Below the pieces are notes generated by a model. That model had not been told where the DNA came from and ran no database searches. It saw only the letters and a program-made list of their open reading frames with translations. From Pseudomonas sp. MAG733B (GTDB lineage Bacteria; Pseudomonadota; Gammaproteobacteria; Pseudomonadales; Pseudomonadaceae): a DNA stretch of 64,000 nucleotides. The DNA lies in assembly GCF_036884845.1 (NCBI RefSeq), contig NZ_CP145732.1, forward strand, positions 62,001 to 126,000. Reading direction: 5' to 3'. Each line of letters starts with the position of its first letter. Within the stretch, counting starts at the first letter, position 1. A program made the position numbers and the translations under genes. Of this stretch, positions 2,056 through 63,904 are shown piece after piece.

Positions 2056-4116
2056 TTAGAAGTCTTTGCACAACCGCAGCGCGTCATAGATCGCCGCATG
2101 CACGTTGCGCTGCGCCACGCAGTCGCCGATGCGGAACAGCAGGTAGCCGTCGCCGCTCTGCTCCAGGCAAGGTTGCGGCTTGATCGCGAACAAGGCTTCG
2201 ACGTCGATCTGGCCTTTGTTGCGCGAGCCTTCCTTCAGCGCGTAGTAGATTTCCTCATCCGGGCGCACGCCGTTTTCGATGACCACCTGGTCCACCACCC
2301 GCTCCTCTTTGGCGCCGGTGTATTCGTTCTCCAGCACCGCCACCAGCTTGTCGCCTTCGCGGTAGACCTTCTCCAGCATCATGTCGCCGGTCATGATCAC
2401 TTCTTTCGGGTACATGCTGCGGTAGTAAGTCGGGAACGACGTACCACCGATGGCTACACCCGGCTTGATGTCGTCGGTGACGATCTCGACCTGGCTGCCC
2501 TTGTCCGCGATGAAGTCGGCGGTTGACATGCCGGTGAATTCGCAAATGGTGTCGTACACCAGCACGTTCTTGCCCGGCGCCACCTTGCCGTCGAGCACGT
2601 CCCAGCTGCTGACCACCAGGCCTTCAGCCGCGCCCCAGTGTTCGTTCTGCTCGATGAACGGATGACCACCGACGGCCAGCACCACCACATCCGGACGCAG
2701 GTCCATGATGGTCGGCGCATCCGCCGCGGTGCCCAGGCGCAGGTCGACTTTCAGCCGCGCCAGTTCCAGCTGATACCAGCGGGTGATACCGGCGATCTGG
2801 TCCCGTTGCGGCGCTTTCGAGGCCGTGGTGATTTGCCCGCCGATGAATTCTTTTTTCTCGAACAGGGTCACGTCGTGGCCACGTTCGGCGGCAACGCGGG
2901 CGGCTTCCATCCCCGCAGGACCGGCGCCGACAACCACAACCTTGCGTTTCACGCCGGTGGTTTTTTCGATGATGTGCGGCAGGCCCATGTATTCACGGGA
3001 AGTCGCCGCGTTCTGGATGCACAACACATCCAGGCCTTGATACTGACGGTCGATGCAATAGTTGGCGCCGACGCACTGCTTGATCTGGTCGATCTGGCCC
3101 ATCTTGATCTTGGCGATCAGGTGCGGGTCGGCGATGTGTGCGCGGGTCATGCCGACCATGTCGACGTAACCGCCTTCCAGAATGCGGGTGGCCTGGTTCG
3201 GGTCCTTGATGTTCTGCGCGTGCAGCACAGGAACCTTCACCACTTCCTTGATCCCGGCCGCCAGGTGCAGGAACGGCTCCGGTGGATAACTCATGTTCGG
3301 GATCACGTTGGCCAGGGTGTTGTGGGTGTCGCAACCCGAACCCACGACGCCGAGGAAATCGAGCATGCCGGTGTCGTCGTAATACTTGGCGATCTGCTTC
3401 ATGTCCTCGTGGGACAGACCGTCCGGGTGGAACTCGTCACCGCAGATGCGCATGCCCACGCAGAAATCGTCACCGACTTCGGCGCGCACGGCTTTCAAGA
3501 CTTCCAGACCGAACTTCATGCGGCCTTCAAAAGTGCCGCCCCATTCGTCGGTACGCTTGTTGACCCGCGGGCTCCAGAACTGGTCGATCATGTGCTGGTG
3601 CACGGCCGACAGTTCCACACCGTCCAGGCCACCGGCCTTGGCGCGGCGCGCAGCTTGCGCGTAGTTGCCGATCACCCGCCAGATTTCTTCCGGCTCGATG
3701 GTCTTGCAGGTCGCACGGTGCACCGGCTCACGCACGCCGGACGGCGACATCAGCGTCGGCCAGTTGAAACCGTCCCAACGCGAGCGACGGCCCATGTGGG
3801 TAATCTGGATCATGATCTTGGCGCCGTGCTTGTGCATGGCGTCGGCCAGATTCTGGAAATGCGGAATGATGCGGTCGGTGGACAGGTTCACCGAACTCCA
3901 CCATTCCTGCGGGCTGTCGATCGCCACGACGGACGAACCGCCGCAGATCGCCAGGCCGATCCCGCCCTTGGCCTTCTCTTCGTAATACTTGACGTACCGG
4001 TCGGTGGTCATGCCGCCGTCGGTCGCATAGACCTCGGCGTGCGCGGTGCTGAGCACGCGGTTGCGGATGGTCAGTTTGCCGATCTGGATCGGCTGGAACA
4101 TTGCTTCGAAAGCCAT
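2056..4116 (-). CDS. dgcA: Dimethylglycine demethylase flavoprotein subunit DgcA
   Basis: Catalytic subunit that demethylates dimethylglycine in the glycine betaine degradation pathway (686 aa, cytoplasmic face). The N-terminal half is an old-yellow-enzyme-like FMN barrel (FQPIQIGKLTIRNRV at the start; substrate-loop HQHMIDQFWSPRVNKRTDEW). The C-terminal half is a dinucleotide-binding region with VVVVGAGPAGMEAARVAAERG near residue 391. The layout is that of trimethylamine dehydrogenase and 2,4-dienoyl-CoA reductase. The linker that normally holds a [4Fe-4S] cluster reads C348-VGA-NY-C354 with another Cys at 366, so one of the four expected cysteines is Ala351. The gene lies 15 bp after the DUF5943 gene and starts at ATG 4116 behind GAGGAAC. 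The dgcA name is by operon order and family. Confidence 0.93.
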   Translation of the reverse strand: MAFEAMFQPIQIGKLTIRNRVLSTAHAEVYATDGGMTTDRYVKYYEEKAKGGIGLAICGGSSVVAIDSPQEWWSSVNLSTDRIIPHFQNLADAMHKHGAKIMIQITHMGRRSRWDGFNWPTLMSPSGVREPVHRATCKTIEPEEIWRVIGNYAQAARRAKAGGLDGVELSAVHQHMIDQFWSPRVNKRTDEWGGTFEGRMKFGLEVLKAVRAEVGDDFCVGMRICGDEFHPDGLSHEDMKQIAKYYDDTGMLDFLGVVGSGCDTHNTLANVIPNMSYPPEPFLHLAAGIKEVVKVPVLHAQNIKDPNQATRILEGGYVDMVGMTRAHIADPHLIAKIKMGQIDQIKQCVGANYCIDRQYQGLDVLCIQNAATSREYMGLPHIIEKTTGVKRKVVVVGAGPAGMEAARVAAERGHDVTLFEKKEFIGGQITTASKAPQRDQIAGITRWYQLELARLKVDLRLGTAADAPTIMDLRPDVVVLAVGGHPFIEQNEHWGAAEGLVVSSWDVLDGKVAPGKNVLVYDTICEFTGMSTADFIADKGSQVEIVTDDIKPGVAIGGTSFPTYYRSMYPKEVIMTGDMMLEKVYREGDKLVAVLENEYTGAKEERVVDQVVIENGVRPDEEIYYALKEGSRNKGQIDVEALFAIKPQPCLEQSGDGYLLFRIGDCVAQRNVHAAIYDALRLCKDF

Positions 4117-15265: not shown

Positions 15266-16366
15266 TCAGGACCGCCGCAACATACCTACTACCTGCTCTG
15301 AGGCAACCTCCAGCCGCTCTTTAAATGCTTGAACCTCCTTCATCCCGACTACCGCCGTATCGGGAAGATCAGTCATCGCTTTTCGAAAAGAAAGGTGAAT
15401 ATCCAACAAGTGCTGGGTGGTCAAAGAAGAAACCGAACTGCCACCTGAAATAGACTCAATTAATGCAAGATCATCACTCAGCCGGGTATTGCCGTTACCC
15501 AGACAGTCAGGCTCTGCAACGCGAAATTCGTTCATATGAGCACTCCGAAACACCTGGCCCGTGCTTACCTCTACATTTGCGCTACCCAGGGCAGTAAATG
15601 CACCAAACAACTCATCGCGAACCTGTGTTTTTGATGAGCCTGCACCGAGTTCACTTGGAATCAACTGGCGGACAGCTTTGATATCCATACGCAATGATGA
15701 CTTCGCAGCATCGTTCGCTGGCATCTTGCCAAGAATCAGTTCGATATCTTCTGCTGAAATGATTTCGCTCCCGGCGATTACCGTTCCTAAATCATTGAGA
15801 CTATTAAGTACATCAGCAACGGCTGCGGCAGTTAACCCACCCCGGAACTCAAGATGATAATGGGCCTGCATGCGACCATTTTCCGCAAAAGGAACTCCCA
15901 GCGTATGGTAACGATCATAATCGTCAGGGTTACCACTTCGGGGAATATTGCGATCCTCATGAACCAAACCATCACCGATCAAATGGTTTTCGTGAATTGT
16001 AATTAACGGTGGTCCGGCGTCGTTCCTTGCCATAACTTGATTCAGTGCGGCCACGGTAGAGGTCACTGCACGCTCAACCTCACGCTTGCTCTCTTGGCTG
16101 AGCGCACCGGTGGCAAAGTCCTTCGACGCATTCAAGTTCAACAGGCCACGCTTGGTATGAACTTCAACACTATGTAGCAACGTCGCTGGAGAACAATCGT
16201 GTTTCACCCATGCCGATTTGCTGCTACTGGCAAGATGAAGCGAGCCCGGATTGTTTGCTGCCGAAACCAATTGTTTGTGTACCAACGTTGTTTTCGCACG
16301 AAAGCCCGGATCCAGAAGCACTCCACCAAGATTGGGAACAGAACTGGATAGCGTTGTCGTTAACAT
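15266..16366 (-). CDS. Orphan protein of unknown function (366 aa) between gbdR and sdaB
   Basis: Codon use and GC content (about half) differ from the GC-rich neighbours. The protein has no signal peptide and no clear membrane segment. The N-terminus is rich in Ser and Thr (MLTTTLSSSVPNLGGVLLDP). A His-rich middle part includes ITIHENHLIGDGLVHEDRNI and MQAHYHLEFRGG. The rest is helical. The Ser-rich start would fit a secreted effector, but no hrp-box or ExsA-like site was found upstream, so that is only a thought. The ATG at 16366 follows GAGGACTT. It splits a gene pair that is adjacent in P. aeruginosa, so it was probably inserted. Confidence 0.7.
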   Translation of the reverse strand: MLTTTLSSSVPNLGGVLLDPGFRAKTTLVHKQLVSAANNPGSLHLASSSKSAWVKHDCSPATLLHSVEVHTKRGLLNLNASKDFATGALSQESKREVERAVTSTVAALNQVMARNDAGPPLITIHENHLIGDGLVHEDRNIPRSGNPDDYDRYHTLGVPFAENGRMQAHYHLEFRGGLTAAAVADVLNSLNDLGTVIAGSEIISAEDIELILGKMPANDAAKSSLRMDIKAVRQLIPSELGAGSSKTQVRDELFGAFTALGSANVEVSTGQVFRSAHMNEFRVAEPDCLGNGNTRLSDDLALIESISGGSSVSSLTTQHLLDIHLSFRKAMTDLPDTAVVGMKEVQAFKERLEVASEQVVGMLRRS

Positions 16367-23844: not shown

Positions 23845-24438
23845 ATGCCCAAGGTCGGTATGCAACCCATCCGCCGCCAGCAATTGATCGAAGCCACTTT
23901 GCAGGCCGTCGATCAGGTCGGAATGGGGGACGCCAGCATTGCGCTGATCGCCCGTTTGGCCGGTGTCTCGAACGGCATCATCAGTCACTATTTTCAGGAC
24001 AAGAACGGCCTGATTGCCGCCACCATGGGGTACTTGATGACTGTGCTGAGCGAGAACGTCACCGCGCGCCGACTGGCGCTGACAGATGACAGCCCGCGGG
24101 CGCATCTGCAGGTGATCATCGAAGGCAACTTCGACGCCAGCCAGGTCAACGGCCCGGCAATGAAAACCTGGCTGGCCTTCTGGGCCACCAGCATGCACCA
24201 GCCGTCTTTGCACAGGTTGCAGCGGATCAACGATCACCGTCTGTATTCCAACCTGTGCTGCCAGTTCCGCCGTGTGCTGCCGCTCGATGATGCGCGCAGC
24301 GCCGCCCGGGGCCTGGCAGCGTTGATTGACGGTTTGTGGTTGCGCGGCGCGCTGTCGGGAGATGCTTTCGACACTGAGCAAGCGCAACAGATCGCTTACG
24401 AATACATGGATTTCCAACTGGCCAAGCGGGTGAGTTAG
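23845..24438 (+). CDS. betI: Choline-responsive TetR-family repressor BetI
   Basis: Repressor of the bet genes released by choline, 197 aa. The TetR helix-turn-helix is at residues 8-55 ([40 protein letters not shown], read in two parts), with a helical ligand domain after it. An ATG at 23836 sits directly on the AAGGAG; ATG 23845 is 9 bp from it and is the better start. betB follows after 62 bp. Autoregulation through the 23755 palindrome is expected. Confidence 0.93.
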
Positions 24439-24500
24439 AGCACACACAGAACGCTCAACCACCGGACCGTGCCAACCACTTATGCTCTTGCGAGGACTTT

Positions 24501-25973
24501 ATGGCCCGTTTCGAATTGCAAAAACTCTACATCGATGGTGCTTACAGCGACGCCAGCAGCGACGCCACTTTCGAAGCCATCAACCCGGCTAACGGTGAAG
24601 TCCTCGCAAAAGTACAACGCGCAACCTTCGACGACGTCGAGCGCGCCGTCGTCAGCGCCGAAAAGGGCCAGAAAATCTGGGCCGCCATGACCGCCATGGA
24701 GCGTTCGCGCATCCTGCGTCGCGCCGTGGAAATCCTGCGCGAGCGCAACGACGAACTGGCCGCCCTGGAAACCCTGGACACCGGTAAATCGTTCTCCGAA
24801 ACCAAGTACGTCGACATCGTTACCGGCGCTGACGTGCTGGAATACTACGCAGGCCTGGTGCCGGCCATCGAAGGCGAGCAGATTCCGCTGCGCACCACGT
24901 CGTTCGTCTACACCCGTCGCGAGCCGCTGGGCGTCGTGGCCGGTATCGGCGCGTGGAACTATCCGATCCAGATCGCCCTGTGGAAATCCGCACCGGCCCT
25001 GGCGGCCGGTAACGCGATGATCTTCAAGCCAAGCGAAGTCACCTCGCTGACCACCCTGAAGCTGGCCGAGATCTACACCGAAGCCGGCCTGCCAAACGGC
25101 GTGTTCAACGTCCTGACCGGCAGCGGCCGCGAAGTCGGCACTTGGCTGACCGAGCACCCGCGCATCGAGAAGATCTCGTTCACCGGCGGCACCGACACCG
25201 GCAAGAAAGTCATGGCCAGCGCTTCGGCTTCGTCGCTCAAAGACGTGACCATGGAACTGGGCGGCAAATCCCCGCTGATCATCTGCGACGACGCCGACCT
25301 CGATCGCGCCGCCGACACCGCGATGATGGCCAACTTCTACAGCTCCGGCCAGGTCTGCACCAACGGCACTCGCGTGTTCGTACCGGCTCACCTGAAAGCC
25401 GCTTTCGAAGCAAAGATCGCTGAGCGCGTTGCTCGCATCCGCATCGGTAACCCGGAAGACGAAAACACCAACTTCGGTCCGCTGGTCAGCTTCGCACACA
25501 TGGAAAGCGTGCTGGGCTACATCGCCAAGGGCAAGGAAGAAGGCGCACGCGTTCTGTGCGGCGGCGAGCGTCTGACCGACGGCGAATTCGGCAAAGGCGC
25601 CTTCGTCGCGCCGACCGTGTTCACCGATTGCACCGACGACATGACCATCGTCCGTGAAGAAATCTTTGGCCCGGTGATGGCAATCCTGTCGTACGAAACC
25701 GAGGAAGAAGTGATCCGCCGCGCCAACGACACCGACTTCGGCCTGGCCGCCGGTATCGTCACCAAGGATCTGAACCGCGCGCACCGCGTGATTCATCAGC
25801 TGGAAGCCGGTATCTGCTGGATCAACGCCTGGGGCGAGTCCGACGCCAAGATGCCGGTCGGCGGCTACAAGCAGTCGGGTGTCGGCCGTGAGAACGGCAT
25901 CAGCTCGCTGAACAACTTCACCCGCATCAAATCGGTACAGGTCGAACTGGGCGATTACGTCTCGGTGTTCTGA
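24501..25973 (+). CDS. betB: Betaine aldehyde dehydrogenase BetB
   Basis: Oxidises betaine aldehyde to glycine betaine with NAD(P), 490 aa, cytoplasmic. Active-site Glu lies in [16 protein letters not shown] and the catalytic Cys in [13 protein letters not shown]; the NAD motif [11 protein letters not shown] is present. Length is usual. A 219-bp gap with a long REP-type repeat separates it from betA, yet the order betI-betB-betA indicates one transcription unit. Confidence 0.95.
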
Positions 25974-26006
25974 TCTGACGCAGAACCTGAGGTTTGGGGG
26001 CCTTTT

Positions 26007-26139
26007 GTGGCGAGGGAGCTTGCTCCCGCTGGGCTGCGAAGCGGCCCCAATCCCAGGTTCCGCTTTCATTCAGACAGAACTCGGTCGCTGATTTGCGACT
26101 GCTGCGCAGCCGAGCGGGAGCAAGCTCCCTCGCCACAGT
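26007..26139. repeat. Long REP-type inverted repeat, copy 2 of 4
   Basis: Outer arms GTGGCGAGGGAGCTTGCTCC and the inverse lie between betB and betA. This copy is inside an operon, unlike copy 1. Confidence 0.9.
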
Positions 26140-26192
26140 GAGTGACAGCTCGGCGACCGCGACCTGAACCAACTTCAAAGAGGGTGCATTCA

Positions 26193-27896
26193 ATGTCCCA
26201 AGTATTCGATTACATCATCATCGGTGCCGGCTCGGCCGGTAACACCCTGGCGACCCGTCTGACTGAAGACGCAGGCGTCACCGTCCTGCTGCTCGAAGCG
26301 GGCGGCCCGGACTACCGTTTCGACTTCCGCACGCAAATGCCTGCGGCGCTGGCATTCCCGCTGCAAGGCCGTCGCTACAATTGGGCCTACGAAACCGATG
26401 CCGAGCCACACATGGACGGTCGTCGCATGGAGTGCGGTCGCGGCAAGGGCCTCGGTGGTTCCTCGCTGATCAACGGCATGTGCTACATCCGCGGCAACGC
26501 CATGGACTACGACGGCTGGGCGAAACTGCCAGGCCTGGAAGACTGGTCGTACCTCGATTGCCTGCCGTATTTCCGCAAAGCGGAAACCCGCGACATCGGC
26601 CCGAACGATTACCACGGTGGCGAAGGCCCGGTCAGCGTAACCACGCCGAAAGCCGGCAACAATCCGCTGTTCCACGCCATGGTTGAAGCCGGCGTGCAGG
26701 CCGGTTACCCGCGCACCGAAGACTTGAACGGCTACCAGCAGGAAGGCTTCGGCCCGATGGACCGCACCGTAACGCCGAAAGGTCGTCGTGCCTCCACCGC
26801 CCGTGGTTACCTGGACGTCGCCAAGAAACGTTCGACCCTGACCATCGTCACCCACGCCCTGACCGACAAGATCCTGTTCGACGGCAAGCGTGCGGTCGGC
26901 GTGCGTTACCTGGTTGGCGACGCTGAAGAGCGTGTCGAAGTCAAAGCGCGCAAGGAAGTGCTGTTGTGCTCCGGCGCCATCGCTTCGCCGCAGATCCTGC
27001 AACGCTCCGGCGTCGGCCCGGCCGAATTGCTGAACAAGCTCGACATTCCGGTGGTCCACGACCTACCGGGCGTCGGTGAAAACCTGCAGGATCACCTTGA
27101 GCTGTACCTGCAATACGCGTGCACCCAACCGGTCTCGCTGTACCCGTCGCTGCTCTGGTACAACCAGCCGGCCATCGGCGCCGAGTGGCTGTTCAACGGC
27201 ACCGGCATCGGCGCCAGCAACCAGTTCGAAGCCGGCGGCTTCATCCGTACCCGTCCGGAATTCGAATGGCCGAACATCCAGTACCACTTCCTGCCGGTAG
27301 CGATTAACTACAACGGCAGTAACGGTGTGAAAGAGCACGGCTTCCAGGCGCACATGGGTTCCATGCGTTCGCCAAGCCGCGGGCGCATCCAGGCCAAGTC
27401 GAAAGACCCGCGCCAGCACCCGAGCATCCTGTTCAACTACATGGCCACCGAGCAGGACTGGCAGGAATTCCGCGACGGCATCCGCCTGACCCGTGAAATC
27501 ATGCAGCAACCTGCACTGGACGCCTTCCGTGGTCGCGAGATAAGCCCGGGCATCGACGTGCAATCCGATGAGCAGTTGGACAAGTTCATCCGCGAACACG
27601 CCGAAACCGCGTTCCACCCGTCCTGCTCGTGCAAGATGGGCACCGACGAGATGGCCGTGGTCGATGGCGAAGGTCGCGTGCACGGCATGCAAGGCCTGCG
27701 CGTGGTCGATGCCTCGATCATGCCGATCATCACCACCGGCAACCTGAATGCACCGACGATCATGATGGCCGAGAAAATCGCCGACAAGATCCGTGGCCGC
27801 CAGCCGTTGCCGCGCAGCAAGGCCGACTACTACGTAGCAGGCGATGCGCCGGTGAAGGGCAAGCCGATGCGGGAAGTGGGTCTGACTGCTCACTAA
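26193..27896 (+). CDS. betA: Choline dehydrogenase BetA
   Basis: GMC-family FAD oxidoreductase, 567 aa, oxidising choline to betaine aldehyde, membrane-associated. The FAD-binding start is [21 protein letters not shown], the first GMC signature is [20 protein letters not shown], and the active-site His is in [14 protein letters not shown]. The frame extends upstream, but ATG 26193, 7 bp after AAAGAGGG, gives the family start [12 protein letters not shown] clean terminator follows. Confidence 0.95.
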
Positions 27897-27919
27897 TAAT
27901 CAGCGCCCTTGCTTCAATC

Positions 27920-27955
27920 AAAACCGCCAACCTTTATGGGTTGGCGGTTTTTTTT
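27920..27955 (+). terminator. Terminator after betA
   Basis: AACCGCCAACC pairs with GGGTTGGCGGTT over a 5-nt loop, followed by eight T. The rest of the gap to 28126 is AT-rich with no other clear signal. Confidence 0.92.
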
Positions 27956-28126
27956 GGCTAACACAAACTCCGCACACCGAACAACAATCCTCACACCCAG
28001 TAACTAAAATCAAACAATACACTTAAACAAAACTCGTAACACTTGTATCCCCACGAACTTGATGACCTCCATTAATATCCGCGCCGCGCTTCAGCCAGAT
28101 AAAAATAATTTCAATGGAGACCCAAA

Positions 28127-29119
28127 ATGCCTGACATGAACTTCACTAAGGAAGTGAGTCATTTCCGAGAAAAAATATCCCAAGAAAAATCCATCATTCT
28201 GGATTTTAGTTACTTGGCCGGCGTTATTGAGTCCTGGTGGAAAAAAAACAACCTTCAAGAAACGCATATCTTGAAAACGCAATTGGTTAATCTATTTCTA
28301 ACGTACCTACGCACCGAAGACACCTTCTATTTTGACAAAGTCGGACTAGCAAATGGGTGCGCGGCAGTCTGCATCAAAAACATATTCAGCTTTGATTCAC
28401 CAAAACTGGCGCTAACCGTGCACGAGGCTTTGGCTGACCTGTTTCATCTCACTGACATAAAATACGATTACGAAGAACACAAAGCGCTGTATCTAAAACC
28501 TTCTGCAGAGAAATATCGGGAATGGGGCAATGGTCACGGCGATATCACACCACACTCCGATGACTTGTATGAAAACCTGAGCGTTGACTACCTGGCGCTG
28601 ACCGTTTGCCGCGACGTTACAAAAACTCCCACCGCCTATTATTTCCCAAGTGATTTACTGTGCGACTTAAGCGACGAGGAAGTGCACGAATTATTAACGA
28701 TGCAAGCAACGTTTATTTCCGGCAAAAACGTCAGCGGCTTAAAAGAAAGGGTTCGTCACGTCGTTGAGTATTCCGAACTCTGCGGCTTTCAGTTTTCGCT
28801 GGATTTCCGAATTGATTCGGAGAACGGTGAGCGGATGCGCGCAAAAAATGGCGGCCAGCATGTGCTGGACAAAATCCGCGTTGGCCTGCCGAATGCAAGA
28901 CACCATGTTTCAACAGCCGAAACCGGCACGTTCCTGATCGTAGCCAACCACAAGATACTGCATGCCCGTCCAATGCTGAACATCGATGCCAACGAGGCTC
29001 GCGATCAAGCGCACAACTCGACTTTCAACACAACGCCGCGACTACTGTTCCGGAGCAAGGGTCCTAGAAAACAATACTTCCCGCTGGATGAAACAACCTA
29101 TACGCAGGACGCAAGTTGA
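28127..29119 (+). CDS. Fe(II)/2-oxoglutarate amino acid hydroxylase (clavaminate synthase-like, AsnO/VioC type)
   Basis: A 330-residue oxygenase. Iron ligands are His143-x-Asp145 (GDITPHSDDLY) and His279 (NHKILHARP), with Arg305 (TPRLLFRS) placed to bind 2-oxoglutarate. The stretch LSVDYLALTVCRDVTKTPTA after the HxD matches the YRPDYLLLLCLR region of free amino acid hydroxylases such as VioC and AsnO, which act on arginine, asparagine or lysine. The substrate here is unknown. GGAGACCC precedes the ATG. Its stop overlaps the azlC start (TGATG), so hydroxylase and exporter are coupled. The AT-rich base composition contrasts with betA and tldD on either side, a sign of transfer. Confidence 0.85.
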   Translation: MPDMNFTKEVSHFREKISQEKSIILDFSYLAGVIESWWKKNNLQETHILKTQLVNLFLTYLRTEDTFYFDKVGLANGCAAVCIKNIFSFDSPKLALTVHEALADLFHLTDIKYDYEEHKALYLKPSAEKYREWGNGHGDITPHSDDLYENLSVDYLALTVCRDVTKTPTAYYFPSDLLCDLSDEEVHELLTMQATFISGKNVSGLKERVRHVVEYSELCGFQFSLDFRIDSENGERMRAKNGGQHVLDKIRVGLPNARHHVSTAETGTFLIVANHKILHARPMLNIDANEARDQAHNSTFNTTPRLLFRSKGPRKQYFPLDETTYTQDAS

Positions 29120-29844
29120 TGGCGATTCCAAATACCTCCACCCGATCCACGTCTGCCCAAGTTTTTAATGAAGGCGCGCGCGATTCAATAACGTTTGGCG
29201 CCGCGTTCATTTTTCTGTACTTATCCATAGGTATTTTAAGCGCAACACAATCCTTATCATTATCTCAATCGTTAGCAACGACTTTATTAATATTCTCCAC
29301 CCCACTACAGTTTTTGCTAATACAAAGCCATAGCGACGGATGGATACTGCTCCCAATAATCGTGGCGCTCAATGCTCGCTTCGTATTAATGTCCGCGACA
29401 CTTGCTCCCTACATAAGAAATACTTCCACCAGCAAAACCATGGCCTCCTTGATTCTGATCACACCCTCGATATTTACGGGCTGCCTCACTCGCTTCAAAC
29501 GGAAAGCGGATCATCCGTTCACTTACATGATTGGCCTCGGCCTTCCAATATTTGGCGTATCGATAATCTGCACCTACATCGGCTTCATCGCCGGAGCAGC
29601 GCTCACCTCACCGGTCATCTATGCAGCAATGACACTTCTATTGCCCTTACAATTCACCGCTTTGGCCGGTAAGCATTGGCCCCACTATTCAGAAGTATCG
29701 AGTTATTGGCTAGGCTTTATCGGAGCGCCACTACTCGTCTACCTATTCAAGGACTACAGCTTGCTCTGCACGCCATTTATAATCGGTGGATTAATTGTGC
29801 TAATTGAAAATAATTACAAAAAACGACGTGGTGTAGCGCCATGA
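29119..29844 (+). CDS. AzlC-family branched amino acid exporter, large subunit
   Basis: A 241-residue inner-membrane protein with about seven hydrophobic segments and the AzlC pattern: GARDSITFGAAFIFLYLSIG at the start, then ALNARFVLMSATLAPYIRN. AzlCD pairs export branched-chain or related amino acids, including toxic analogues. It starts at ATG 29119, overlapping the hydroxylase stop by one base, and overlaps azlD by four bases (ATGA). It is the most AT-rich gene in the window. Pairing with a hydroxylase suggests it exports the hydroxylated product; this is inference. Confidence 0.85.
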   Translation: MAIPNTSTRSTSAQVFNEGARDSITFGAAFIFLYLSIGILSATQSLSLSQSLATTLLIFSTPLQFLLIQSHSDGWILLPIIVALNARFVLMSATLAPYIRNTSTSKTMASLILITPSIFTGCLTRFKRKADHPFTYMIGLGLPIFGVSIICTYIGFIAGAALTSPVIYAAMTLLLPLQFTALAGKHWPHYSEVSSYWLGFIGAPLLVYLFKDYSLLCTPFIIGGLIVLIENNYKKRRGVAP

Positions 29845-30185
29845 CGATCTGGCTTCTTATTGCATTTTCCGCCATTACCGCCCTTGCATTTCGTGCTCTT
29901 CCATTTGCCTTCAAAAACAGCAACGCACTGACGCAAACCCAAGGTTCCTTTTATCGATTCATCAGCTACAGCGCACAAGCAATGTTGGGAGTCATCATTT
30001 ACGACACTGCATTCAACAAAAGAGATGTTCTGACCCTGATTGAGCAATTTGACACGCTGGATGCACTGAAGCTGTTCTTGCTGGTCGGCACCTTCCTCGC
30101 GGTCGCAAAAACTAGAAAAATTCTGCCTGCTTTTTTTGCAAGCCTATTCATTTATGTTGCAGCTTTCATTTATTTGAACGGCTGA
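29841..30185 (+). CDS. AzlD-family small subunit of amino acid exporter
   Basis: A 114-residue membrane protein with four hydrophobic stretches and the AzlD-type start IWLLIAFSAITALAFRALPF. Members form a two-component exporter with AzlC. Its start overlaps azlC by ATGA. It ends the three-gene operon, and a long hairpin follows at 30214-30247. Confidence 0.82.
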   Translation: MTIWLLIAFSAITALAFRALPFAFKNSNALTQTQGSFYRFISYSAQAMLGVIIYDTAFNKRDVLTLIEQFDTLDALKLFLLVGTFLAVAKTRKILPAFFASLFIYVAAFIYLNG

Positions 30186-30213
30186 AAGCAGTCCTTTGCC
30201 AGACAGTGGGATT

Positions 30214-30247
30214 GTTCGCGAGCTAGCCGCAATGGCTATTCGCGAAC
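30214..30247. other. Hairpin after the hydroxylase-AzlCD operon
   Basis: GTTCGCGA pairs with TCGCGAAC, enclosing TAGCC/GGCTA. There is no T tract. It may end the island's transcript or be a REP relative. The rest of the 30186-30416 gap shows nothing further except AAGGAGG before the next gene. Confidence 0.5.
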
Positions 30248-30416
30248 TAAATCATCAGCCAAGTCGTCACGCGCCGGCTGCAGCTCTTAATCCTTCCCGA
30301 GTCCGATCCAAACTTGATCCTCCCCCCGCGCAGGCCTACTCTAGCGCCACGCAATCGTTTCACCCCTCCCCTCGCAACACCGCTTCACCGTCACTCCATA
30401 CCAAGGAGGTTCCCGA

Positions 30417-31859
30417 ATGTTCGATTTCCACCCCCAGCTCAAGCAGCGCTTTGCTGCGTTGCGCACGGGCGCTGAATTCTTTTCCCTGCGTTATGTGCGC
30501 GAGTCCGGCCAGTACCTGTCGGTGCGCAAGAACGTCGCCGAACCGCCAAGCCTGAGCCGTGATGAAGGGGCAATGCTGACCGTGCGGGTCAACGGCGTCG
30601 AAGCCTATGCCGCGACCAACGATCTGTCGCAACAAGGCCTGCAAGCGGCGCTGGAGCGAGCCGAGCAACAAGCCCGTCGACTCAAGCCCCACGCCCTGCT
30701 GGACCTGCGCGAACAAGCCGTTTCGAGTGACCGCGCCGATTATTTTTCGCCGAACCTCGACCAGCCATTCCCGTCCCTGAGCGATTGCTACCAATTGCTC
30801 GGTACGGAATCCGCCGCTGTTCCAAAGGACGAGCGCCTGGTGAACTGGCAGGTGAGCATCGGCATCACCCACGTCGAGCAGATTTACCTCAACAGCGCCG
30901 GTGCCGAACTGCGCCAAGCCCAGCATTTCGTCTATCCCGGGCTGGAGGTCACTGCCTACGACGGTAGCGACAGCCAGACCCGCACTCTCGGCCGGGAAAA
31001 CTTCGGCCAACAGGGTGGCTTTGATGTCATCAGCCGCTGCGGATTGATCGGTGCCGGAGTAAAAATCGCCGATCAGGCGTTGCAATTGCTGCTTGCGCCG
31101 AATACACCGCAAGGTCCGCGCGACCTGCTGCTGATGCCCGACCAGATGATGCTGCAAATCCACGAGTCCATCGGCCACCCGCTGGAACTGGACCGCATCC
31201 TCGGCGACGAACGCAATTACGCCGGCACCAGTTTCGTCAAAGCCGAAGACTTCGGCCACCTGCAATACGGTTCGAAACTGCTGAACGTGACCTTCGATCC
31301 GGATATCCCCGAACAGCTCGCCAGCTACGGCCATGACGACGACGGCACAGCCGCCAGCAAACAATTCCTGATTCGCGAAGGCCTGTTGTTGCGGCCATTG
31401 GGCGGAGCGCTGTCGCAATTCCGCGCCGGCATGGATGGCGTCGCCAATAGCCGCGCGTGTGGCTGGAATCGTCCGCCGATCGACCGCATGGCCAACCTGA
31501 ACATCGAGCCGGGCGATCAACCGCTGGAACAGCTGATCGGCAACATCGAGCACGGCATCCTGATGAGCACCAACCGTTCGTGGTCAATCGACGATGCGCG
31601 CAACAAGTTCCAGTTCGGCTGCGAATGGGGCCAGTTGATCGAAAACGGCGAACTCAAGGGCGTGGTGAAAAACCCGAACTACCGGGCGATTTCCGCGCAG
31701 TTCTGGAAGAGCCTCAGCGCCGTCGGCGATGCCAACACCTTCAAGGTTCTCGGCACGCCGAACTGCGGCAAGGGCGAGCCGAATCAGGTCATTCGTGTCG
31801 GCCACGCGTCGCCAGCGTGCGTGTTCAGCAACGTTGATGTATTTGGGGGAGACGCCTGA
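30417..31859 (+). CDS. TldD-like metalloprotease subunit (peptidase U62)
   Basis: A 480-residue TldD/PmbA-superfamily protein. The zinc motif HESIGH (HExxxH) is at residues 249-254, in MMLQIHESIGHPLELDRI, which marks the catalytic subunit. Family members degrade unfolded or modified peptides as TldD-TldE heterodimers. AAGGAGG gives a strong ribosome binding site. It overlaps the partner gene by one base (TGATG). It is a second, less typical copy rather than the rng-linked tldD, judging by context, so no symbol is given. Confidence 0.85.
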   Translation: MFDFHPQLKQRFAALRTGAEFFSLRYVRESGQYLSVRKNVAEPPSLSRDEGAMLTVRVNGVEAYAATNDLSQQGLQAALERAEQQARRLKPHALLDLREQAVSSDRADYFSPNLDQPFPSLSDCYQLLGTESAAVPKDERLVNWQVSIGITHVEQIYLNSAGAELRQAQHFVYPGLEVTAYDGSDSQTRTLGRENFGQQGGFDVISRCGLIGAGVKIADQALQLLLAPNTPQGPRDLLLMPDQMMLQIHESIGHPLELDRILGDERNYAGTSFVKAEDFGHLQYGSKLLNVTFDPDIPEQLASYGHDDDGTAASKQFLIREGLLLRPLGGALSQFRAGMDGVANSRACGWNRPPIDRMANLNIEPGDQPLEQLIGNIEHGILMSTNRSWSIDDARNKFQFGCEWGQLIENGELKGVVKNPNYRAISAQFWKSLSAVGDANTFKVLGTPNCGKGEPNQVIRVGHASPACVFSNVDVFGGDA

Positions 31860-33196
31860 TGAGCACTTCAAAATCTCAGGCCGAGTCGTTCAAGGCCTTG
31901 GTCGCCGGATTGCGCGCAGCACTGCACGAACCGGAGCAATTCACCCTCAGTTATGCCGCCGAATCGTCAGCCTTCGTGCGTTTCAATCACGCCAAGGTGC
32001 GGCAGGCCGGGCAGGTGCAGCAGGCGAGCATCGGCCTGAAACTGATCAACGATGGTCGCCACGCCGATCTGCAGATCACCTTGGCGGGCGACCCTGAAGT
32101 CGACCTTCAGCGTCTGGCCGAAGGTCTGCAACAGCTGCGCGAAACCTTGCCGTTGCTGCCAAAGGACCCGTACCTGCTGCTCAACCACAACGGCTGGAAA
32201 AGCAAGAACGTGCAGGAACACCCGCTGCCGGACACTGAGCAAGCAGTCGCCGAAATCACCCAGGCCGCTGAAGGGCTGGACATGGTCGGCTTTTATGCTG
32301 CCGGCCCGATCAGCCGTGGTTTCGCCAGTTCCGCCGGAGCGTTCGGCTGGCATCAGGCCAACAGCTTCAATTTCGACTTCAGCCTGTTCCACGAAAACGG
32401 TCAGGCGGTGAAAGCCAGCTATGCCGGACATGACTGGAGCAGCGAAGGCTTTGCCAAGCGCTTCCAACAGGCCCGTGAGCAGCTTGAGTTTCTGGGGCGG
32501 CCGCTACGCACCCTGCCGCCGGGCCAATACCGCGCCTACCTCGCGCCGGCCGCACTGGAAGAAATCATGGGCATGCTGTGCTGGGGCGGGTTTTCCGCGC
32601 AGTCGATTGCCAGCAAGAGCAGTCCGCTGCAGAAGCTCTACGCGGGCGATCAACACTTCAGCCCGCTGATCTCGCTGGATGAAAAAGTCAGTGGTTCGCT
32701 GAGCCCGGCATTCTCTGACGAAGGCTATCCACGCAGCGATCTGAAGTTGATTGCCGAGGGTCAGGCCGGTGCTCAACTGGTCGGCTCACGAAGCGCCGCC
32801 GAATACGGCTTGACCGCCAATGGTGCCAGCGGCGGCGAATCGCCGAGTGCGTTGAACTTGAAGGCCGGGGAATTGGCTGAGGCGGACATCCTCAAACAAC
32901 TGGGCACCGGTTTGTACATCAGCAACCTGTGGTACCTGAACTTCTCGGATCAACCGGCGGCGCGCCTGACCGGCATGACACGGTTTGCGACTTTCTGGGT
33001 CGAGAACGGCGAGATACAAGCGCCGGTCAGCACCATGCGTTTCGATGACAGCGCGTTCAGCCTGCTGGGTTCGCAGTTGGAAGCGTTGACCGAGGAGCGC
33101 GAAATGTTGCTGTCGGCGAGTACCTACAGCCAGCGGGCGACGGCTTCTGCGTTGTTGCCTGGGGCGCTCGTTAGCCGATTGACTCTGACGCTGTAA
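31859..33196 (+). CDS. TldE/PmbA-like protease partner subunit
   Basis: A 445-residue TldD/PmbA-superfamily protein without a HExxxH motif, as expected for the non-catalytic partner. The C-terminal beta-rich part (GTGLYISNLWYLNFSDQPAARLTGMTRFATFWVENG) is the conserved PmbA signature. It is translationally coupled to the TldD-like gene. The pair most likely forms a heterodimeric peptidase; the substrate is unknown. Confidence 0.83.
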   Translation: MSTSKSQAESFKALVAGLRAALHEPEQFTLSYAAESSAFVRFNHAKVRQAGQVQQASIGLKLINDGRHADLQITLAGDPEVDLQRLAEGLQQLRETLPLLPKDPYLLLNHNGWKSKNVQEHPLPDTEQAVAEITQAAEGLDMVGFYAAGPISRGFASSAGAFGWHQANSFNFDFSLFHENGQAVKASYAGHDWSSEGFAKRFQQAREQLEFLGRPLRTLPPGQYRAYLAPAALEEIMGMLCWGGFSAQSIASKSSPLQKLYAGDQHFSPLISLDEKVSGSLSPAFSDEGYPRSDLKLIAEGQAGAQLVGSRSAAEYGLTANGASGGESPSALNLKAGELAEADILKQLGTGLYISNLWYLNFSDQPAARLTGMTRFATFWVENGEIQAPVSTMRFDDSAFSLLGSQLEALTEEREMLLSASTYSQRATASALLPGALVSRLTLTL

Positions 33197-33207
33197 ACAC
33201 AACACGC

Positions 33208-33342
33208 CTGTGGCGAGGGAGCTTGCTCCCGCTGGGCTGCGAAGCAGCCCCAAAACCCGCAAGTCCGGTTCACCTGGAAGACCACACAAACCGGATTTAC
33301 GACTGCTGCGCAGCCGAGCGGGAGCAAGCTCCCTCGCCACAG
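33208..33342. repeat. Long REP-type inverted repeat, copy 3 of 4
   Basis: CTGTGGCGAGGGAGCTTGCT and its inverse bound 135 bp just after the TldE-like gene. Confidence 0.9.
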
Positions 33343-33372
33343 GGGCCGAGCACTATTTGACTCAGAGGTCCC

Positions 33373-34800
33373 ATGCCCAACCGCCCGCCTCTCGATCCTG
33401 TCACCGCCCGCTGGGTGCCGTGGGTCGTCGCCATCGCGTTTTTCATGCAGTCCCTCGACGGGACGATCCTCAACACCGCCCTGCCCGCCATGGCCAGCGA
33501 CCTGGCCGAAGACCCACTGCGCATGCAAGGGGTGATCATCGCCTACATGCTCACCGTCGCCTTGCTGATCCCCGCCTCAGGCTGGATCGCGGATCGCTTC
33601 GGCACCAAGAAAATCTTCTTCAGCGCGATTCTGCTATTCAGCTTCGGCTCGTTGCTCTGCGCATTGTCGACCACCCTCACCCAGTTGATCGGCGCCAGGA
33701 TAATCCAGGGCCTGGGCGGTGCGCTGATGCTACCGGTCGGGCGATTGGTGGTACTGCGTGCCTACCCGCGTTCGGAACTGGTGCGGATCATGGGCTTCAT
33801 CACCATTCCCGGCCTGCTCGGCCCGCTGATCGGCCCGACCATGGGCGGCTGGATGGTGCAATACCTGACGTGGCACTGGATCTTCCTGATCAATCTGCCG
33901 GTCGGCGTGATTGGCTGTTACGCCGTGTGGAAATTCATCCCCGACCTGCGCGGCTCCGAACGCACTCGCTTCGATAGCCTGGGTTTCGTGCTGTTCGGCG
34001 CGGCGATGATCCTGATCACCGTCGCCATGGAAGGCCTCGGCGAACTGCACTTGCCGCACCTGCGGGTGATGCTGCTGTTGTTCGGCGGGATGGCGTGTCT
34101 GGCAGCGTACTGGCTGCGCGCCGGGCACATCGACAATCCGCTGTTCGCGCCGTCGCTGTTCAAGACCCGGACTTTTGCCGTGGGCATTCTCGGAAATCTG
34201 TTCGCCCGCCTCGGCAGCGGCGCCCTGCCGTTCCTGGTGCCATTGCTGCTGCAAGTGGCGCTGGGGTATTCGCCGTCTCAAGCGGGGATGAGCATGCTGC
34301 CGCTGGCGGCGGCGGCGATGATCGCCAAGTGGGTGGCGCGGCCGCTGATCGAACGCTTGGGCTACCGCATCGTGTTGACCGGCAACACCCTGGCGCTGGG
34401 GATCATGCTGGCGAGCATGGGCTTGGTCAGTGAGCAGACGCCGTACTGGCTGCTGTTGTGTCTGCTGGCGATCCTGGGCGCGATCAACTCCTTGCAGTTC
34501 ACCGCGATGAACACCGTGACCCTGATCGACCTCGACGATGCCAGCGCCAGCAGCGGCAACAGTCTGCTGTCGGTGGTCGCACAACTGTCGTTGAGCCTTG
34601 GCGTTGCGTGCGCCGGTGCATTGCTGGGCGGGTTCACGGCGGAGATTGGAAACGACGGTGTAGACACGGTTCTGGGTGCCTTCCAGCTGACATTCGTGAC
34701 GGTAGGCATCATGGCGATGCTGGCCGCGACGATCTTTTCCCAGCTCTCAAAGGAAGACGGACGGCGCGTCAAACGTCCGGAACAGCACATCGAACCTTAG
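33373..34800 (+). CDS. MFS multidrug efflux transporter, DHA2 type (MdtD-like)
   Basis: A 475-residue inner-membrane exporter with about 14 hydrophobic segments. The start VVAIAFFMQSLDGTILNTAL holds the DHA2 motif D1, GWIADRFGTKKIF is motif A, and IPGLLGPLIGPTMGGWMVQY is the antiporter motif C. It resembles MdtD/EmrB proteins that expel drugs by proton exchange. It stands just before dbpA, as a similar gene does in P. aeruginosa. Substrate unknown. Confidence 0.85.
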   Translation: MPNRPPLDPVTARWVPWVVAIAFFMQSLDGTILNTALPAMASDLAEDPLRMQGVIIAYMLTVALLIPASGWIADRFGTKKIFFSAILLFSFGSLLCALSTTLTQLIGARIIQGLGGALMLPVGRLVVLRAYPRSELVRIMGFITIPGLLGPLIGPTMGGWMVQYLTWHWIFLINLPVGVIGCYAVWKFIPDLRGSERTRFDSLGFVLFGAAMILITVAMEGLGELHLPHLRVMLLLFGGMACLAAYWLRAGHIDNPLFAPSLFKTRTFAVGILGNLFARLGSGALPFLVPLLLQVALGYSPSQAGMSMLPLAAAAMIAKWVARPLIERLGYRIVLTGNTLALGIMLASMGLVSEQTPYWLLLCLLAILGAINSLQFTAMNTVTLIDLDDASASSGNSLLSVVAQLSLSLGVACAGALLGGFTAEIGNDGVDTVLGAFQLTFVTVGIMAMLAATIFSQLSKEDGRRVKRPEQHIEP

Positions 34801-61894: not shown

Positions 61895-63904
61895 ATGACT
61901 GGTGCCATCAGCCAATCAATTTCGACACGTCTTTTGAGTGTCGCGAACACCACCGATCACAACTCACCCACAACCCCGATAGACAATGATTGCGCAGACT
62001 TTCAGAACGGTTCCATGCGTATCGGACAGGGTACGTGCGAAGTGTTGGTGCACTGCGTGACAGATCGAGCGCTGACTATCCGGCGCTACGAAGACGGCGT
62101 TGTCGAGATGGACCTGAAACTCCCCGACATCGAGCGCCTGGTACTCAGTGGTGGCGGTGCCAAGGGTGTCGCCTTCTCGGGGATGGTCAAGGCACTGGAG
62201 GCCGACCAGGTGCTGGACAAGATCCGCACTATCTCCGGCTCATCGGCCGGGGCCATTTCAGCGGCTTTTCTGGCCAGTGGCATGGGCCACTCAGACTTCG
62301 ACAAGATGTCGGACGAGACTAACCTCGTCGCACTGCTCGACAGTCACAACAAGATTCTCGGGCCGATTCAGCACGTCAGCTCCGTCATCGGCAAGGGCAT
62401 CGCAAAAGTCCCCGGCAAGGCGGGTAGCATTGGACGGCTGCTGCTCGATCTGATGCCTCGCCTCCAGTCCAAAGCCGCACCGCTGGAAGAACTGCTTCAC
62501 GAGAAAATGGTTGAGTCTGTTCAGTCACGCTTCAAACACGCCCTTAACGATCCGCAGCGACAGCTTTCACAGGCCACCAAAGACTGCGTTGAGCAAATAA
62601 ACACCAACGGCTATGTGACATTCGGCGATCTGGCGACACTCAGCAAAGAGCTGCCTGAAATCAAACAACTGAACATCACCGGAACGGCCATGCTCGACGG
62701 ACGCCCGCAAATGGTGGTGTTCAATGCCAGTCTGACACCGGATATGGATGTAGCCCGCGCGGCCCATATATCAGGTTCGTTGCCCGTCGTTTTTCAGAAG
62801 CCTTCGGAACAGGGACTGCCCTTTCAAACTAAGGGAGAGCTAACGTCCTTCCAGGACGGCGGAATCATGCTCAACACACCGGTTCTGGACCTTTACGAAC
62901 CTCAATTTCCAATGAGTCCGATTCCCGAAAGCGATCAGCTAATCCTCAAGTTCGAGAGCGGGAATAACGACACCAAAAAAGATCGTGGGACCGTGGGCTC
63001 GGCACTGGCCGATAAAATCGTCGGCGTTCGCTACGCGGCTCGGGACGCACAAGAAGCAAGCGGCCTCAAGGCCTTTGAAAAGCAAACAATCGTCGTTCCA
63101 TTGAAGACTGAAAAAGGCGACTTTACGGGTACGTTCAATGGCACCGTCAACTTCAGCATGCCGTTGAAGCACAAAAACCACTTGCAGCAAAAACTGGAAG
63201 TTGAGGTGAGTGAATATCTGAAACGCCATGAAAGCAGCGAAACCTACACATTCAACTCCATCGGTGGCGCACTTCTGGCCCTCGATGACCAAATGTTCGA
63301 AGCTGCAGCGAATGAACTGCAAAATGATCCCGGCTGTGCAGAAGTCATCGACTTCCGCCAAAAATCTCAACAGACGATGACGGACTTAAGCCAAGCCTTG
63401 ATCGAGGCGAAAGCCACAGGCTCCGACAAGCTGAACCTCACTGCTCCACTGAAAGATGCAATTCACGCTCTTGATCAACTCGGCGACACGCCGGGCAAGA
63501 TTGAATGGCTGGCAAAAAAACTCAACCATGGAAACGTTCCGGATCACATGGAACTGCTTCAAGCGGTTAAACGCATTGATGCCGATACAGGGGGGCCGAA
63601 ATCCGTCGTGCTGACTAAAGCGATCGAGGAAATGGGCGCCCGCGACATCGTAACCAAGAGCGAAAACTTCATTCGCGAAGTGATCTATCCTTCCTTGTAT
63701 CGTCTTGACCAGCCTGATTCAAACGTCAGGCTGTTAAAGGCAGCAATCGTTGACCTGCGAGAGACTACCAGCACCGAGGGTTACAACGCTGTACTCAATC
63801 GGATTGCCGATCAGTACGTCTCGCGCAACTTCCCGAACTCGTCACGCCCGTTCAACTCGACAACAGTCGATCAAGCCCGGGCATGGGTGATTCCCGGCGG
63901 ATAA
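61895..63904 (+). CDS. ExoU-family patatin-like phospholipase (type III effector homologue)
   Basis: A 669-residue homologue over the full length of P. aeruginosa ExoU (687 aa), a ubiquitin-activated phospholipase A2 injected into host cells. The patatin oxyanion loop SGGGAKG is at 85-91, the catalytic serine is Ser117 in GSSAG, and the catalytic Asp321 is in DGG. Other runs shared with ExoU are LNITGTAMLDGRPQMVVFNA and the C-terminal SLYRLDQPDSNV, in the membrane-localisation region. The N-terminus is Ser/Thr-rich with no Sec signal, as for type III effectors. ATG 61895 follows AAGGAAG. No chaperone gene like spcU follows within the window, and base composition is less GC-rich than the neighbours. 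Confidence 0.9.
   Translation: MTGAISQSISTRLLSVANTTDHNSPTTPIDNDCADFQNGSMRIGQGTCEVLVHCVTDRALTIRRYEDGVVEMDLKLPDIERLVLSGGGAKGVAFSGMVKALEADQVLDKIRTISGSSAGAISAAFLASGMGHSDFDKMSDETNLVALLDSHNKILGPIQHVSSVIGKGIAKVPGKAGSIGRLLLDLMPRLQSKAAPLEELLHEKMVESVQSRFKHALNDPQRQLSQATKDCVEQINTNGYVTFGDLATLSKELPEIKQLNITGTAMLDGRPQMVVFNASLTPDMDVARAAHISGSLPVVFQKPSEQGLPFQTKGELTSFQDGGIMLNTPVLDLYEPQFPMSPIPESDQLILKFESGNNDTKKDRGTVGSALADKIVGVRYAARDAQEASGLKAFEKQTIVVPLKTEKGDFTGTFNGTVNFSMPLKHKNHLQQKLEVEVSEYLKRHESSETYTFNSIGGALLALDDQMFEAAANELQNDPGCAEVIDFRQKSQQTMTDLSQALIEAKATGSDKLNLTAPLKDAIHALDQLGDTPGKIEWLAKKLNHGNVPDHMELLQAVKRIDADTGGPKSVVLTKAIEEMGARDIVTKSENFIREVIYPSLYRLDQPDSNVRLLKAAIVDLRETTSTEGYNAVLNRIADQYVSRNFPNSSRPFNSTTVDQARAWVIPGG

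Follow-up and report, generated by a model that had tools for sequence, protein, structure and literature searches.

The isoleucine dioxygenase (IDO) operon of Bacillus thuringiensis encodes an isoleucine dioxygenase, a reductase, and an RhtA exporter, and its product is discussed as a conditional antibiotic in the part of the source that deals with it (PMC3684760). The Hil and Bac operons, treated in the same part, combine dioxygenases or BacABC with a ligase (HilD/BacD) and an exporter (HilE/BacE), the Hil exporter belonging to the major facilitator superfamily (MFS). In Pseudomonas aeruginosa, the AMB cluster encodes a putative LysE-type transporter, AmbA, and two Fe(II)/2-oxoglutarate (2OG) oxygenases, AmbC and AmbD, as far as the relevant section of PMC4357302 describes it. 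Here I analyzed a three-gene unit, consisting of an oxygenase gene, azlC, and azlD, in a stretch of 64,000 nucleotides of Pseudomonas sp. MAG733B (positions 62,001 to 126,000 of the forward strand of contig NZ_CP145732.1), which is called the window in the following. It is fairly likely, with real room for doubt, that these three genes form a make-and-export unit passed from lineage to lineage, with the oxygenase adding a hydroxyl group to a free L-amino acid and AzlCD secreting what results.

Like the IDO operon as it is described in that source, the window unit would combine a free-amino-acid hydroxylase and an exporter in one operon. In contrast, the IDO oxygenase belongs to PF10014, its exporter is of another type, and the additional reductase gene is absent from the window unit. 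The window oxygenase matched neither PF10014 nor PF13640, the families of the IDO and Hil dioxygenases, nor any other Pfam family at an E-value of 0.1. Compared with the Hil and bacilysin operons in the same source, the window unit has no ligase, has an AzlCD exporter, and uses another oxygenase family. The AMB cluster shares with it the occurrence of Fe(II)/2OG oxygenases and a putative amino-acid-type exporter in Pseudomonas, but needs two non-ribosomal peptide synthetases (NRPSs) and follows a thiotemplate-linked tripeptide route, according to the same section. No NRPS gene was seen by eye beside the oxygenase gene among the open reading frames (ORFs) of 24000-34500. Thus, the window unit repeats a known hydroxylase-plus-exporter logic with an undescribed oxygenase family and AzlCD. 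A preliminary description of this DNA, made from the sequence alone, had regarded a hydroxylase-AzlCD module as new. The coupling itself is not, because the IDO/RhtA, Hil, and AMB systems are already in print in the sources cited; what stands is the specific pairing of the oxygenase with AzlCD, for which no description was found by title or abstract start among the open-licence papers listed. With one enzyme and one exporter as its whole pathway, the product would be one of the simplest candidates for a secreted metabolite that can be put to the test. If the interpretation is true, it adds an unnamed oxygenase family, a new source of hydroxylated amino acids, and a physiological substrate of AzlCD. 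For Bacillus subtilis, the relevant part of PMC10882977 states that no condition with substantial AzlCD expression had been identified.

In the window, the oxygenase gene (28127..29119, plus strand, ATG start) encodes a protein of 330 amino acids with an H143-x-D145...H279 iron triad. It is followed on the same strand by azlC (29119..29844, 241 amino acids from ATG), the gene of the large exporter subunit, and by azlD (29841..30185, 114 amino acids), the gene of the small one. The two adjacent exporter genes are assigned at the family level: AzlC matches PF03591 (4.2e-16; 60.1 bits against a cut-off of 32.1) and AzlD matches PF05437 (3.1e-07; 30.9 bits against 23.7). Amino-acid export has been reported for AzlCD of Bacillus subtilis (PMC10882977). 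The TGA of the oxygenase gene and the ATG of azlC share one base at 29119, and azlC and azlD overlap by four bases. The ORF listing starts azlC at an upstream TTG (29116), so the one-base overlap assumes the ATG at 29119. The GC content of the oxygenase gene, azlC, and azlD is 0.472, 0.463, and 0.446, respectively, versus 0.618, 0.625, 0.611, and 0.609 for betB, betA, tldD, and pmbA, and the GC content at third codon positions is 0.50-0.54 in the three unit genes versus 0.74-0.80 in those four. By Pfam, the unit is flanked by a gene for a GMC oxidoreductase (betA by name) on one side and a TldD/PmbA-type gene on the other. Given the ATG at 29119, the overlaps of 1 and 4 bases, the AzlC and AzlD identities, and the AT-rich island between betA and a tldD-like gene, all of which the preliminary description had claimed, were thus borne out. 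In the mechanism proposed here, the oxygenase would use Fe(II), 2-oxoglutarate, and O2 to hydroxylate a free L-amino acid. Of this substrate, E116 would bind the amine, R309 the carboxylate, and D230 the side chain. AzlCD would then pump out the hydroxy-amino acid, which would serve both secretion and protection of the producer, and the product may act as an antimetabolite or a signal.

The recurrence of the three genes in a Rodentibacter-type genome (G670) argues most strongly that they function and move as one. There, the oxygenase, AzlC, and AzlD are 43, 54, and 44% identical to those of the window, and the genes show the same 1- and 4-base overlaps. This unit lies between cytochrome-c-peroxidase-like and uvrB-like genes (by eye), a site unrelated to betA-tldD, and has a GC content of 0.296 versus 0.39-0.41 around it. 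Is the unit common in Pseudomonas? A scan of a genome collection gave 12 loci, 11 of them from Pseudomonas. In all of these 11 named loci, the order is betA-oxygenase-azlC-azlD-tldD, the oxygenase stop codon shares one base with an ATG, and the stretch is AT-rich (GC content 0.45-0.50 versus 0.61-0.64 in betA and tldD). The preliminary description had suggested looking for oxygenase homologues beside AzlCD. Since they are paired in 11/11 Pseudomonas loci and in G670, the arrangement goes beyond chance, and it does not hold that they are never near exporters. In one named locus (L013), the azlD-tldD gap is about 1 kb, versus 0.2-0.3 kb in the ten others.

In Pseudomonas, the unit occurs at a single site, where it is rare and patchily distributed. 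In a genus sample, some genomes of which are probably the same strains as the named loci, the oxygenase was found in 8 of 398 genomes (G000 included), the seven others having the same neighbours. When the genus was searched again later, 167 of 169 genomes had a betA-type match. Among the best 30 betA loci, two have the unit (one being the window itself), while 23 have tldD 223-408 bases from betA and no unit; the gap is about 1.2 kb in three, and one is cut by a contig end. Another of these 30, G149, has azlC and azlD alone at the betA-tldD site. Both genes are full-length (L050, L078; 90 and 89% identical), but only a short remnant of the oxygenase gene is left. Because the GC content of the unit is low and the unit recurs elsewhere, acquisition is favoured, in agreement with the preliminary description, and the 23 loci without the unit are consistent with it. 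The betA-tldD site may be an insertion spot. One of the loci with a gap of about 1.2 kb and without the unit (L079) carries an RraA-like gene at this site (2387-3082).

The oxygenase is part of a rare, undescribed family without a name in the libraries searched. No NCBIfam family was matched over its cut-off, the sole match being GntD at 0.0056, far under the cut-off. A PDB sequence search with the single protein gave no match, and the best match of a PDB profile search (0.075) was a designed scaffold, followed by NapI (0.86). However, the top fold matches of its predicted structure, whose predicted local distance difference test (pLDDT) score is 91, are clavaminate-synthase-like (CSL) amino-acid hydroxylases, with glutarate hydroxylase a little below them. 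The CSL affiliation claimed in the preliminary description therefore rests on the fold, since Pfam gave nothing. Compared with VioC, NapI, CmnC, OrfP, KDO1, AsnO, and clavaminate synthase, the window oxygenase has the same fold and iron triad layout, an Arg pair four residues apart, an amine-binding Glu, and a side-chain Asp. It differs in its 10-16% identity in structural alignments and in an invariant G-K-N at 199-201.

Residues were counted over 50 aligned oxygenase sequences, including that of the window. The iron triad residues H143, D145, and H279, which the preliminary description had named, are invariant (50/50). So are R305 and R309, which align with the DRWLxR motif containing the 2OG Arg and the substrate-carboxylate Arg. 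E116 is also present in 50/50 and is aligned with the AsnO Glu 30 residues ahead of the first iron His, the substrate-amine position; an amine-binding Gln or Glu is present in the large majority of CSL groups. D230 (50/50) is aligned with the side-chain Asp position P15. The substrate is thus probably a free amino acid, as the preliminary description had proposed together with an amino-acid exporter as partner. The idea of a BesD-like lysine halogenase was dropped because Asp occupies the position two residues past the first His in 50/50 sequences, a position at which BesD has Gly.

Relatives of the oxygenase are encoded next to a ligase-like gene in other lineages. In L014, an oxygenase gene (55% identity) is followed by genes for a ligase-like protein, a polytopic membrane protein, and a PhzF-family protein, with overlaps or a short gap. 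The membrane protein has 11 hydrophobic segments and is MFS-like by eye, with no match in Pfam and none in the PDB. G1334 (L040) has the same four genes, with an incomplete oxygenase reading frame. L014 is labelled as a metagenome-assembled genome of Marivirga sp., and its proteins are 57-77% identical to those of the G1334 cluster; the L014 contig is probably misbinned. In L035 (5783-7978), a ligase-like domain is fused to the oxygenase in a single protein of 731 amino acids. Behind this fusion gene come a gene for an unclassified membrane protein and, in convergent orientation, a PhzF gene. The ligase and the oxygenase occupy separate frames in L034, and the ligase is disrupted in its front part in L036. 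Leaving L014 aside, the ligase-bearing hosts are members of families that yielded IcmQ. With a profile built from the four ligases, the match to the alanine-anticapsin ligase BacD had a value of 7.4e-07, and no other molecule came under 0.03. The logic of L014 and L040, to modify an amino acid, ligate it, and export it, would be that of the Hil and bacilysin operons as described in the source cited above. Since amino-acid ligases need amino acids, the ligase context points to an amino-acid product independently of AzlCD.

A wider reading, which I regard as possible but rather doubtful, is that the hydroxylated amino acid of this oxygenase family is a weapon. It would be released free via AzlCD in the Pseudomonas and Rodentibacter types, or as a dipeptide hiding the toxic part in the ligase-bearing relatives, while strains with AzlCD alone would be non-producing but immune. 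G909, a second genome of the genus of G670, has an interrupted oxygenase gene and a full-length azlC, and the oxygenase frame of the Pseudomonas locus L012 ends after 48 codons. Together with G149, there are three units with a damaged oxygenase gene and a full-length azlC, which fits self-protection, the numbers being too small to weigh.

The oxygenase is rare in wider samples, which overlap and count G000 where it was sampled. It was found in 2 of 57 relatives, 3 of 369 genomes in the class (one remote, G716), and 2 of 341 in the order (one remote, G1114, a CsiD). The counts are 2/140 in the family of G670, 1/7 in the order of G716 (G716 itself), 3/16 in the order of G448, 0/11 in that of G513, and 1/112 in that of G459. 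Moraxella cuniculi has a relative of the oxygenase (P0109), and AzlC proteins of the same clade, 50-51% identical, are found in Helicobacter and Neisseria leonii (P0197, P0201, P0204). Some oxygenase and AzlC relatives come from contigs of matching length (for example 3700 for P0055 and P0182, and 2163 for P0075 and P0190), which merely hints at linkage and was not counted in its favour. G716 has another oxygenase-exporter pair: a remote CSL-type oxygenase gene (L025, 4739-6386; best PDB match AsnO, 6.7e-22) overlaps a LysE/RhtB-type exporter gene, and a pyridoxal phosphate-dependent decarboxylase-like gene lies nearby.

Several points weigh against the make-and-export interpretation. Glutarate hydroxylase (CsiD/GlaH) is hard to distinguish from an amino-acid hydroxylase here. 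In a Foldseek search with the oxygenase model, a GlaH chain ranks sixth, with an E-value of 1.5e-10 versus 8.8e-11 for the best. The best Z-score of GlaH, 20.8, is less than 1 from those of OrfP and AsnO and 1.9 under those of NapI and VioC. The oxygenase query A1 matches one CsiD sequence at 2.5e-5 and single amino-acid hydroxylases at 0.003-0.1, a comparison biased by the fact that this CsiD sequence was itself found with A1. In the iron triad, Asp replaces the Glu of the CSL hydroxylases. The lid also apparently lacks their second Asp: position P12 seems not to be Asp, as positions 193-194 are Q/V/K/E and A/P in four sequences, the lid alignment being uncertain. Two pocket Asp residues (lid P12 and P15) are expected where the side chain is cationic, according to the paper on the CSL family. 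Because the second Asp seems absent, as in AsnO, a neutral, polar side chain is a weak first guess, subject to the same uncertain alignment. The guess of an Asn- or Gln-like side chain also draws on the invariant D230 and on AzlCD of B. subtilis, which reportedly detoxifies L-asparagine as well as histidine and 4-azaleucine and has no importance for serine, in the part of PMC10882977 concerned with these amino acids. The ligases reached no Pfam cut-off (best 1.8e-4), their NCBIfam ATP-grasp matches are also under the cut-offs, and the assignment to a BacD-like ATP-grasp type is distant. The damage in L012 may be a sequencing error. In another Pseudomonas locus (L009), the oxygenase is full-length and the azlD frame ends after 63 codons, the reverse of what self-protection would lead one to expect, and the azlD of G909 departs from the G670 type near its end. 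No oxygenase relative from Helicobacter or Neisseria was among the 120 matches listed, though the AzlC clade is present there.

The likeness to CsiD/GlaH raises the possibility, which I consider unlikely, that the substrate is a small dicarboxylate or a similar acid and that AzlCD exports a derived amino acid or something unrelated. However, glutarate has no amine, whereas the residue at the amine position, E116, is Glu in 50/50 sequences, and the neighbours of the oxygenase gene encode an amino-acid exporter or a BacD-like ATP-grasp ligase. The window protein also differs from CsiD/GlaH in having no PF08943 match; this family was weakly matched by 2 of the 50 aligned members, with a best value of 0.0019. 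Next to the csiD gene of L038 lies a DAO-type gene of the L-2-hydroxyglutarate-oxidase type, while no such gene was seen by eye beside the oxygenase gene in the window, L014, or L024. The hydroxy-amino acid might instead be a building block used elsewhere in the cell, AzlCD bleeding off the surplus or giving protection. The company of a ligase and a PhzF-family protein in other lineages speaks for this, but neither gene was seen beside it in the window or L024, a search that did not extend to the remainder of the genome, and I consider this reading improbable. The unit could also be a detoxifying or catabolic pair, with the enzyme inactivating an amino-acid analogue of foreign origin before AzlCD removes it; AzlCD does make B. 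subtilis resistant to toxic amino acids and their analogues in the part of PMC10882977 cited above. Such a pair is nevertheless a quite remote prospect, since no catabolic gene was seen beside the unit and the family is found in ligase-containing clusters elsewhere. Finally, it is highly improbable that shared descent alone, without joint action, explains the adjacency of the oxygenase and AzlCD: the exporter persists without the enzyme in G149 and same-clade AzlC occurs in Helicobacter and Neisseria, but the order and overlaps are the same in Pseudomonas and G670 at unrelated sites, with oxygenases only 43% identical.

The unit of the window lies in a genome of a single 6.65-Mb contig, which is of the Pseudomonas fluorescens type by the names of its closest relatives. 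A phage origin was rejected, as tblastn against viral contigs gave no relative, and so was a plasmid origin, with no relative in a plasmid collection. A defence system was rejected because the three proteins have no PADLOC family. The insertion repeats found at the unit amount to just one 14-nucleotide direct pair (86%), with no tandem array, and Rfam gave no match at the gathering score in 27800-30450. Two promoter-like sites were found versus a mean of 3.1 in shuffled sequences, which is no excess. The sole other low-GC dip in the window (15266-16366) lies inside a minus-strand ORF of 366 amino acids without a Pfam family at an E-value of 0.1. At the left edge of the AT-rich stretch, a terminator-like hairpin lies 3′ of betA (27920..27951, plus strand), and a similar hairpin is visible by eye in an alignment of upstream regions. 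Read by eye, a GGAG (28116..28119, plus strand) probably serves the oxygenase gene as its ribosome-binding site. In the region 5′ of the operon (28000-28126), a block around GTAACACTTG and TCCATTA-TATCCGCGCC is conserved in most of the 14 aligned sequences and is a candidate regulatory region.
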